A stretch of DNA of 61,228 nucleotides from Methanoregula sp. GTDB lineage: Archaea; Halobacteriota; Methanomicrobia; Methanomicrobiales; Methanospirillaceae. A model generated the notes under the pieces. It saw nothing but the letters and a program-made list of their open reading frames with translations. It was not told where the DNA came from and did no database searches. The position numbers and the translations under genes were made by a program. Positions 28,966-43,838 of the stretch are shown piece after piece (position 1 is the stretch's first letter; each line of letters begins with the position of its first letter). The stretch spans positions 1-61,228 of the forward strand of contig NZ_JAQTQD010000016.1 in NCBI RefSeq assembly GCF_028712425.1, read 5' to 3'.

Positions 28966-30816
28966 TTATTTGGGTGGCTGGACCCGGGCATCCGCTATCT
29001 TTGTGATGAGTGCCTCAAGGACAGCATCGCGCATGCCTTCAACAAACTTGATGCTGCCCACGACCAGGTGCCCGCCACCGCTGATGCCGCCGCCCGGGAG
29101 CTCGACCCGGAGTTCCCTCACCATGCGGGGGATGTTCATGAGAACGCCGCGGGACCTGAGGACGGCAAAGTCGGGACCAAAGCCGATCGTGACAACCGGT
29201 TTTCCCGCATGCTCGCGGCAGAGCCGGTCGTGCACCTCGCCGCTGGTCTTGCCCGGTGGCGGGAAGGTGAACTTGTGCGCATGGATCTCGACATCGATAA
29301 GGAAGAGATGTGCATCGTTTTTGAGCACACGGGGCACAACATGCGCCATACAGGCACTCATCTGGTCCTCGATCATGGTGTTTGCCCCCTCAACGAGCAG
29401 GGCAACAAGCTTCTTGTGACGCTCGGTCCGGCCGTTGATGTTCAGGATATCCTTGATAATTTCCCGACCGTCATTGAACCGGAGCCAGAACTGCTCGTAG
29501 TCAAGGGCAAGCGCAATGTCCTTGCAGGCCTCTTCCGGGTACTGGTCACGGACAAGCTCAAGGAAGAGTGCGCGCTCCGGCGCCTCGCTCCGGTCGCCCA
29601 CACCGGCAATGGCGGGGAGGTGACGGATCAGGGATTCGACCTTCGGGTTGATCAGTCGTGCCACCTCGGTGCCCAGCATTCCTGCCGTGATCCCGAAGTC
29701 CCCGCCGACATGGTACGGGTTGACATGAGCGACAAGGTACTTGTCGATGGTCGCATCAGGGTGGTGGTGGTCGATAACCGCGAAGGGGATGTCATACACG
29801 CTCGCTATCTTGTACGACGGTTCATCTTCTTCCGTTGAACCGTTATCGGTGAGGAGGACGAGCGGCATCTTCTGGCCGAACCGGACATGGTCCTTTAACG
29901 AGAAGTCGAGGTCACGGGTGATGTCCTCGATCTCGTAGAACGGGGCTTTTGACGGAGCCCGCTTGAAGAGGAAGTAATCGGCATCGAAGTCGCCGCCGGA
30001 CTCCCGGATGAGCGAGACCACGGCCTGCTCGATGGCCACAGCCGAGCAGATGCCGTCAGCGTCCGCGTGGTGGCGGAGGATGATGGGTTGGGAGGTGAAG
30101 ACCGCCTTCCGGATGATCTTTGCGACCTTCTTCATCTCGGGACGGAGTTTCTCCATGACCTCGCTTTTTACGAGGAGCGGGATATCCTCCGGCTCGGAGC
30201 GCTTGTCGAGTGCCTGCTCGATCCGGGCTTTCACCGCATCCGATTCATCCCCTTCGAGCGCGGTTATGAGATCCGCCTCGATCTGGAGCTGGTTGTTTCT
30301 CCGCATCACTTCCCCGATGACCTTGACAATGTCGCCAAGTTCGATCTCCGGAAATGCGCGTACACCTGCCTCGATGAACGCGGCTGCATTCTGGGTCCCG
30401 GTCTCATCGACAATCGTGAAGATGGTTGGACCGCTGGTCTGTTTAATCTGGGCAACCTCTCCTTCGATGGCAACGGTCTTCCCAATCTTGCCGGCAAGAT
30501 CGGCAATCCGGACTGTTGTTGATTTCCGCTCGATGTTCTGCACCTGGTAGACCTGGATCTGCACTTCTTCAAGGTCAATGTTGCCATTGGGGCGGATCTG
30601 CCGGACACGGACAAGGATCGAGTCCCGCTCCTTGTGCTCGGCCTTCATGTTGCTCTTGTGGACAAGGCCCTTGATCCGGTCGTTCATCTGGACGAACATC
30701 CCGAAATTGGCAAAGCCCTGGACCTTTCCCTGGTATACGTTCCCTTCCTCAATGTCGGTAAGGTCGCAGGCTGCGCCAAGCCGGTACACAAGGATATCAT
30801 CACTGGTATTAGACAT
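28966..30816 (-). CDS. DHH-family phosphoesterase with S1 and OB domains (archaeal RecJ-like)
   Basis: A 616-residue protein. Residues ~20-70 are an S1 domain (EGNVYQGKVQGFANFGMFV). Residues ~105-190 are a second OB fold (GKTVAIEGEVAQIKQTSGPT). From ~240 on is a DHH/DHHA1 phosphoesterase with HADADGICSA and DHHHPDA motifs. Archaeal relatives are RecJ-like nucleases of replication and repair; this architecture is the common euryarchaeal form. The exact substrate (ssDNA, RNA or oligonucleotides) is not decidable here. The ribosome-binding site GGTGAGA lies ~5 bp before the ATG. Confidence 0.85.
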   Translation of the reverse strand: MSNTSDDILVYRLGAACDLTDIEEGNVYQGKVQGFANFGMFVQMNDRIKGLVHKSNMKAEHKERDSILVRVRQIRPNGNIDLEEVQIQVYQVQNIERKSTTVRIADLAGKIGKTVAIEGEVAQIKQTSGPTIFTIVDETGTQNAAAFIEAGVRAFPEIELGDIVKVIGEVMRRNNQLQIEADLITALEGDESDAVKARIEQALDKRSEPEDIPLLVKSEVMEKLRPEMKKVAKIIRKAVFTSQPIILRHHADADGICSAVAIEQAVVSLIRESGGDFDADYFLFKRAPSKAPFYEIEDITRDLDFSLKDHVRFGQKMPLVLLTDNGSTEEDEPSYKIASVYDIPFAVIDHHHPDATIDKYLVAHVNPYHVGGDFGITAGMLGTEVARLINPKVESLIRHLPAIAGVGDRSEAPERALFLELVRDQYPEEACKDIALALDYEQFWLRFNDGREIIKDILNINGRTERHKKLVALLVEGANTMIEDQMSACMAHVVPRVLKNDAHLFLIDVEIHAHKFTFPPPGKTSGEVHDRLCREHAGKPVVTIGFGPDFAVLRSRGVLMNIPRMVRELRVELPGGGISGGGHLVVGSIKFVEGMRDAVLEALITKIADARVQPPK

Positions 30817-42155: not shown

Positions 42156-43838
42156 ATGATCTCGATCCTGTTTGTCGATGACAATACCGACCTGTTCACC
42201 CGCATCCGTACTTTTCTTGAAAAGACCGGCGATATCCGGATAGAGCAGGCTCATTCCATCAAGCAGGCAACAGACAAACTCCGGGGGAGGACCTATGATG
42301 TCATCATCTCCTACGAGCAGCTTCCCACAGTCAACGGCATCGAGTTTGTGCCGGACATGAACGGGATAGATTTCCTCAAGTACCTCAAGAGCCAGGGGAA
42401 TACGACGCCCGTCATCCTGCTCGGGCGCCGGGGGCCAAACAAAATCTCCCTTGAGGAAGTGAGCAATGCCACGGAGATCACCCTCCCCTCCTCCGGAGAT
42501 CTCCGCCCACAGCTGATGGAGATGGTCACCCTTATCAAGCAGACCATGCTCCGGCGGAAGGCCGAACGCGAACAGAAAGCTCAGACCGAGCAGCTCGCAA
42601 CTATCCTGTCTGCAACCCCACTGGGAATATTCCAGGTCAGGAACGGGGTCATCGAATGGGTGAACCGCCCCTTTGTCACCATGCTCGGGACTGATGAGGG
42701 ATCTCTTGTCGGGAAGGAGCTTCACACCCTGATCCGGACCCCGGAAGAGTTCGACCAGCTTGCCCGTGAGTTCCAGATCCGGAAGGATCCGCAGGGGCTT
42801 GCTCATGCAGACTGTCGGCTCGTCCGCAGGGACGGTAAGGCAATTCCCTGCCATATCCAGGCCCAGGCACTCGATCCTCAGGACATTGTCCGTGGCGGGA
42901 CGTTTGTGGTCACGGACAACACCGAGAAACAGAAACTCACAGACGCCCTCCGCGAGAGCGAGGCAAAGTACCGCGAGGTGCAGACCAACAGCCAGAGTAT
43001 CATTATCCGGATGGACCTGCAGGGCACCATTACCTTCTTCAACACTTATGCTCTCACGTTCTTCGATTACAGTGCCGAGGACGTGATCGGGAAGAACCTG
43101 GTCGGCACCATCGTTGCCGAGAAGTCCCGGATCCAGCACGGGCTCTCGATGATGGCTAACGACATCGGCTTCAACGCCGAGGGCTATGCAGTGAACATCA
43201 ACGAGAACATCCGCAGGAACGGTGACCGGGTCTGGATCGCCTGGATCAACAAGGCGATCCGCGATGAACAGGGCCGTCTCATCGAGATCCTCTGCATCGG
43301 CCATGACATCACAGACCGGAGGCGTGGCAGCGGAGAGGTCCGGATCAGCACCGATACGTGGAAGGACATGGTCGTTGCCGACACGGACATAAAGGAGGAA
43401 GTCTTCGATGCGGTCTTCCATATCTGCACGGAGATAACCATCGAGGGACGGGAAGGAAAGCCCGTTGGGACGACCTTCCTTATCGGGGATACCAAGAACG
43501 TGCTGGAGAAGTCCCGCCAGATCATCTTAAACCCGTTCGAGGGGCACAAACCCGAACTGCGCATGGTCACAAACCCGGGAATCAACGAGAACATCAAGGC
43601 CCTTGCACAGCTTGACGGCGCTTTTGTTCTCACGGGCGACGGCTTCATCGAATCGGTCGGCCGCTACATCACGGTGGACTCAAGCAATGTGTCCCTCCCG
43701 CCCGGTATGGGCACAAGGCACAACTCAGTGGCGGCGATCACCGCTGTGACCAACGCTGTGGGGATCGTGGTATCCCAGAGCGGAGGTGGGATTACCGTAT
43801 TCCGCGAAGGCCGGATACTGAAGAAGATTATGTTGTAA
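42156..43838 (+). CDS. degenerate receiver-PAS-PAS-diadenylate cyclase
   Basis: A 560-residue protein. Residues 1-125 are a CheY-like receiver with the VDDN acidic pocket, but the phosphoacceptor position is Y53 in D48-V-I-I-S-Y, so it is probably not phosphorylated. Two PAS domains follow (about 145-260 and 275-390). The C-terminus (about 410-560) is a DAC domain with D487-G-A489 and G519-T-R-H522, followed by IVVSQSGGGI. It should make c-di-AMP from two ATP under PAS control. The usual RHR motif reads RHN here, which might alter activity. Confidence 0.8.
   Translation: MISILFVDDNTDLFTRIRTFLEKTGDIRIEQAHSIKQATDKLRGRTYDVIISYEQLPTVNGIEFVPDMNGIDFLKYLKSQGNTTPVILLGRRGPNKISLEEVSNATEITLPSSGDLRPQLMEMVTLIKQTMLRRKAEREQKAQTEQLATILSATPLGIFQVRNGVIEWVNRPFVTMLGTDEGSLVGKELHTLIRTPEEFDQLAREFQIRKDPQGLAHADCRLVRRDGKAIPCHIQAQALDPQDIVRGGTFVVTDNTEKQKLTDALRESEAKYREVQTNSQSIIIRMDLQGTITFFNTYALTFFDYSAEDVIGKNLVGTIVAEKSRIQHGLSMMANDIGFNAEGYAVNINENIRRNGDRVWIAWINKAIRDEQGRLIEILCIGHDITDRRRGSGEVRISTDTWKDMVVADTDIKEEVFDAVFHICTEITIEGREGKPVGTTFLIGDTKNVLEKSRQIILNPFEGHKPELRMVTNPGINENIKALAQLDGAFVLTGDGFIESVGRYITVDSSNVSLPPGMGTRHNSVAAITAVTNAVGIVVSQSGGGITVFREGRILKKIML

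Follow-up and report, generated by a model that had tools for sequence, protein, structure and literature searches.

A receiver-PAS-PAS protein lacking the phosphoacceptor aspartate is the only diadenylate cyclase of a Methanoregula genome

Cyclic di-AMP is essential in Haloferax, where it is tied to osmoregulation, and we know of no account of how archaea control its synthesis. A gene on a 61,228-nucleotide contig of a Methanoregula genome (the whole stretch of DNA analysed here, hereafter the window) gives this question a particular form: its product joins a diadenylate cyclase (DAC) domain to two PAS domains and a receiver with Tyr at the phosphoacceptor position (Table 1), so what would control such an enzyme, if not phosphorylation? 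The reading we favour, at a probability of roughly 0.75, is that of an active diadenylate cyclase of the DacX kind, the sole source of c-di-AMP in this organism, gated by its PAS domains, carrying a pseudo-receiver that works independently of phosphorylation, and matched by a protein of TrkA_N-DHH-DHHA1 architecture as candidate phosphodiesterase.

Table 1. Features of the diadenylate cyclase gene, in window coordinates.
Feature	Position	Strand	Basis
Receiver-PAS-PAS-diadenylate cyclase gene, 560 aa, the genome's only DAC	42156..43838	+	ORF; Pfam; single PF02457 match
Degenerate (pseudo-)receiver, residues 1-128	42156..42539	+	PF00072; retains D8/D9 and lacks the phosphoacceptor Asp, switch Thr and Lys of paralogous receivers
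Tyr53 codon (TAC), phosphoacceptor position	42312..42314	+	Sequence; alignments of receivers
Nine-residue insertion VPDMNGIDF (65-73) after the beta3-alpha3 segment	42348..42374	+	Gap in the genome's other receivers; conserved in 31 orthologues
PAS domain 1, residues 143-258	42582..42929	+	PF13188/PF08447
PAS domain 2, residues 268-388	42957..43319	+	PF00989/PF13426
Conserved PAS2-DAC linker, residues 389-410, EVRISTDTWKDMVVAD	43320..43385	+	0.77 mean identity, genus clade
DAC catalytic domain, residues 411-560	43386..43835	+	PF02457; PDB matches CdaA, DisA
DGA motif, D487-A489	43614..43622	+	Sequence and alignments
GTRHN motif, G519-N523; Asn invariant in Methanoregula clade	43710..43724	+	Sequence and alignments

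The observed gene and its architecture are confirmed as real, far beyond chance: full-length homologues were found in seven records labelled Methanoregula or Methanomicrobiales, and the six that were aligned keep the same architecture at 73-95% identity. The domain composition given in the initial annotation, a DAC domain with DGA and GTRH motifs behind two PAS domains and a Tyr-bearing receiver, was borne out by Pfam, sequence and alignment, with matches to the receiver (PF00072, residues 4-65, 2e-12, 47.7 bits against a cut-off of 30.2), to both PAS domains (8.6e-22 and 4.7e-21, over roughly residues 145-258 and 271-387) and, at the C-terminus, to the DAC domain (PF02457, 4e-17, 62.3 bits against a cut-off of 27). 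CdaA enzymes came out on top of a PDB sequence search, to which a profile search added DisA, while an AlphaFold model of the full protein built from seven sequences was unusable (mean pLDDT 38). In the seventh record, from a metagenome assembly (OWC_0057; L034:6001-7680), an in-frame stop codon interrupts the DacX gene, through either mutation or assembly error.

Several lines of evidence suggest that the DAC domain is catalytically competent. It carries the DGA and (G/T)xRH motifs of diadenylate cyclases, and is better conserved than any other part of the protein (mean identity 0.85 in the genus clade and 0.64 to the sister clade), with DGA and GTRH invariant among 31 orthologues except for a DGV in one. 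Against this, DVA replaces DGA in one DacX relative, L039, which lies on a short metagenome contig. The initial annotation had also singled out Asn523, at the third position of the motif that reads RHR in bacterial CdaA. The residue is present, and fills this position in 18 of 18 rows of the Methanoregula clade, but the hint that it is unusual or informative finds no support, since the position is occupied by Ser, Ala, Val, Thr, Gly, Ile or Arg in the rest of the sensory DAC lineage described below, by Arg, Leu, Met, Ile, Val or Ala in DacZ-type enzymes, and by Met in all 10 haloarchaeal DacZ sequences fetched. The DacZ of H. volcanii is experimentally active and essential (PMC6741144), so that Arg would be dispensable there if its own sequence shares the Met of its family. 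Asn523 was thus rejected as a sign of an altered enzyme, the position being free to vary in archaeal DACs. That freedom weakens the one feature that would favour a catalytically dead domain acting as a sensor of nucleotides or c-di-AMP, namely the replacement of the third RHR residue; the near-invariance of the catalytic motifs also speaks against such a sensor, as do the absence of any other DAC from the genome and the retention of a candidate phosphodiesterase, and we regard this alternative as highly improbable.

The favoured reading of an active enzyme as sole source of c-di-AMP depends on what else the genome encodes. A single PF02457 match was found in the whole genome, which is 97% complete; the initial annotation had counted an additional canonical DAC among the observations that would speak against its own interpretation, and none was found. 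Across the order, DACs were present in 147 of 150 genomes (109/109 of those of good quality), mostly 430-700 aa long in the window's own family (f1, which is Methanoregulaceae by its named relatives) and mostly DacZ-sized in the other families. Long open frames of ~430-616 aa around Methanomicrobiales DacZ matches were dismissed as read-through of GC-rich sequence ahead of an ordinary DacZ start. All 56 DACs of the 34 Methanoregulaceae genomes were fetched. In a maximum-likelihood tree built from 132 DAC domains, 64 DacZ-type rows were split from the sensory rows with a support of 100/99 and a branch of 0.57, although the tree is unrooted and the sensory lineage could have originated by duplication or by transfer. 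Only two Methanoregulaceae DACs fell in the DacZ clade (L058 of G117 and L087 of G069), and sensory-lineage DACs stood alone in 32 of the 34 genomes, while 17 of the 34 have a single DAC; these counts include one DAC cut by a contig end that was left out of the tree and assigned by motif (L015 of G081), and short or long-branched rows weakly placed on the sensory side (L010, L016, L051, L091 and L092). Consistent with this split, the window protein scored 106.4 bits against the NCBIfam DacZ equivalog model, over its DAC part alone and for a cut-off of 430, and a haloarchaeal DacZ passed the same model with 480 bits. With no full-length equivalog match, no pyruvate-kinase-C-like N-terminus and a DAC domain outside the DacZ clade, the window protein is, judged by its sequence, not a DacZ, in agreement with the unusual architecture first ascribed to it. 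Both the distribution and the tree support the view that the sensory lineage replaced the ancestral archaeal DacZ in Methanoregulaceae.

Several other DACs were encountered in this survey. PKD-DAC and TPR-DAC proteins, some with hydrophobic, signal-like N-termini, are extra DACs in several Methanoregulaceae genomes (L062:4000-5724 (-), L019:1-1899 (+) and L016:163-1899 (+)), bringing these to up to four DACs per genome. Family f10 (L093-L121) encodes short DACs of ~180-232 aa with GSRHMAA or GTRHMAA motifs and without room for an N-terminal domain of normal DacZ size.

The architecture itself is probably not new, a point which the initial annotation had missed. One of the genomes compared (G017), which we take to be that of Methanoregula boonei, encodes a single DAC, a receiver-PAS-PAS-DAC orthologue of the window gene. 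The DacX class reportedly dates to Corrigan and Gruendling 2013. In Braun et al. 2019, five archaeal DAC classes are listed from a 2013 review, and the members given for DacX are M. boonei A7I8S2 and two metagenome proteins (PMC6741144). On the basis of that list, the architecture class would already be known as DacX through M. boonei, and the window protein, from the same genus, would belong to it and differ in nothing of kind. The literature search yielded no biochemical evidence on any DacX enzyme. Among other known systems, the DacZ/DacY (CdaZ) enzymes of euryarchaea, such as H. volcanii DacZ and M. jannaschii CdaZ, have a homologous DAC domain with DGA/DGV and G-x-RH motifs but, unlike the window protein, combine it with a pyruvate-kinase-C-like N-terminus, lack PAS and receiver domains, and form a separate DAC clade. 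Bacterial CdaA (DacA) and DisA likewise share the catalytic domain and the DGA/RH motifs, with membrane helices in CdaA and a DNA-binding domain in DisA where the window protein has its receiver-PAS-PAS region. Conversely, the REC-PAS-PAS response regulators of methanogens (PMC5847659) pair a receiver with tandem PAS domains in the same lineages, but those listed have other output domains or none, whereas the window protein has a DAC output and a receiver without Asp. In the literature searched, we did not find any mention that the phosphoacceptor is lost lineage-wide, that DacZ was displaced, that a phosphodiesterase candidate co-occurs with DACs or that TrkH is fused to a DAC, all of which may still have been published.

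The receiver is recognisable by sequence, yet has lost residues on which phosphorylation usually depends. In an alignment with 21 further receivers encoded by this genome, the column of Tyr53 holds Asp in 20 and Glu in one, and the switch Thr of their FTG motif and the Lys of QKGG are also replaced in the window receiver. Its nine-residue insertion directly follows NGIEF, of which it looks like a repeat. The substitution is not a peculiarity of this genome: among 31 orthologues from the Methanoregula and sister clades, the phosphoacceptor position is Tyr in 27, Cys in three and Phe in one, and Asp occurs in none of the 43 rows (41 distinct, with two duplicates) that comprise all receiver-bearing DACs alignable by a receiver profile (Tyr 27, His 4, Cys 3, Gly 3, Arg 2, and Phe, Leu, Asn and Glu one each), the residue being less sure outside the main clade, where some alignments are weak. 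The predicted receiver defect thus spans the whole lineage of receiver-bearing DACs, phosphorylation of the window receiver in the usual manner appears very unlikely, and the initial claim of a non-phosphorylatable receiver is supported.

A true two-component response regulator might still answer to a histidine kinase, either through binding or because some other residue is phosphorylated, and both the abundance of receiver-containing proteins in the genome and the acidic pair D8/D9, kept in 18 of 18 rows of the Methanoregula clade, would fit such a role. However, the first residue of this pair is His in 13 of 13 rows of the sister clade, where the pair reads His-Asp, and the complete absence of Asp from the phosphoacceptor position, together with the replaced Thr and Lys, argues in the same direction. 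Nor does the locus offer a partner: the order fbp-fba-LSm-wHTH-DAC, followed by a convergent acyl-CoA synthetase gene, is kept across the Methanoregula clade, sometimes with extra genes between the DAC and acyl-CoA synthetase genes, and no kinase gene adjoins the DAC gene. (By eye, the intervening genes of L040 and L033 have no c-di-AMP link.) We therefore consider kinase control of the receiver quite unlikely.

Under the favoured reading of a PAS-gated enzyme, control would instead come from the middle of the protein. As in other members of the DAC family, c-di-AMP would form from two ATP between two DAC domains that oppose each other in a homodimer or higher oligomer. The PAS pair, together with the conserved linker, would set the arrangement of these DAC domains in response to a cytoplasmic signal, and the pseudo-receiver may be a module for constitutive dimerisation or partner docking, acting otherwise than via Asp phosphorylation. 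The PAS domains might bind a ligand or redox cofactor, in line with the initial annotation; no signature of a cofactor was detected in them. Alternatively, the enzyme could be active while its receiver-PAS-PAS region only oligomerises and senses no signal, c-di-AMP levels being set by expression and by the phosphodiesterase. Such a passive region would be consistent with the low conservation of the receiver and PAS1, the least conserved parts of the protein (~0.6 mean identity within the genus clade, 0.59 for PAS1), and with the fusion of unrelated N-terminal regions (PKD, TPR and TrkH) to the same DAC lineage elsewhere. Against it, PAS2, whose mean identity in the genus clade is 0.80, is clearly better conserved than PAS1, and the strong conservation of both PAS2 and the linker that joins it to the DAC domain suggests signal transfer, so that we think a purely structural role unlikely.

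Beyond the cyclase, the genome encodes candidates for the remainder of a c-di-AMP circuit. The TrkA_N-DHH-DHHA1 protein (G000:C45, L148:997-2478 (+)) resembles the bacterial phosphodiesterase GdpP in its DHH-DHHA1 part, and is present in 40 of 40 DAC-positive genomes across the phylum and in six of 20 DAC-negative ones (Fisher p 2e-9, a value that ignores relatedness, the counts not being phylogenetically independent). Both the DAC and this protein are missing from all eight genomes of family f22, from four of genus g46 and from two incomplete genomes, and the two DAC-positive members of g46 keep the protein; the best-supported joint losses are those of one whole family and part of one genus. 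On this co-occurrence, the protein is a candidate archaeal c-di-AMP phosphodiesterase or effector, and c-di-AMP would probably be degraded by it in Methanoregula. A DHH protein encoded in the window itself (28966-30816) was set aside as c-di-AMP phosphodiesterase, since by eye it resembles a RecJ-type nuclease that carries an S1 domain. As for targets, five TrkA_C (RCK_C) matches were counted in the genome, among them three in proteins that also carry Na+/H+ exchanger domains and one in a TrkA, and c-di-AMP may act on such RCK_C-bearing K+/Na+ transport proteins. A TrkH K+ transporter is moreover fused to a sensory-lineage DAC in two genomes from two genera of family f3 (L066:2693-4756 (+) and L177:368-2566 (-), the TrkH of the latter being recognised by its similarity to the former), which links c-di-AMP synthesis directly to K+ uptake within this same DAC lineage.

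That the phosphorylation site is consistently lost suggests that c-di-AMP synthesis in these archaea is controlled by something other than two-component phosphorylation. More broadly, and only tentatively, as we put its chances slightly below even, the receiver may have lost phosphorylation before this lineage of c-di-AMP synthases diversified and been kept as a phosphorylation-independent allosteric module, in a lineage that displaced the DacZ essential elsewhere and placed synthesis in Methanoregulaceae under the direct control of a PAS sensor. The TrkA_N-DHH-DHHA1 protein provides a testable candidate for the archaeal c-di-AMP phosphodiesterase. Because the only synthase of Methanoregula is fused to recognisable sensors, the signal that controls it could be searched for directly on one purified protein.
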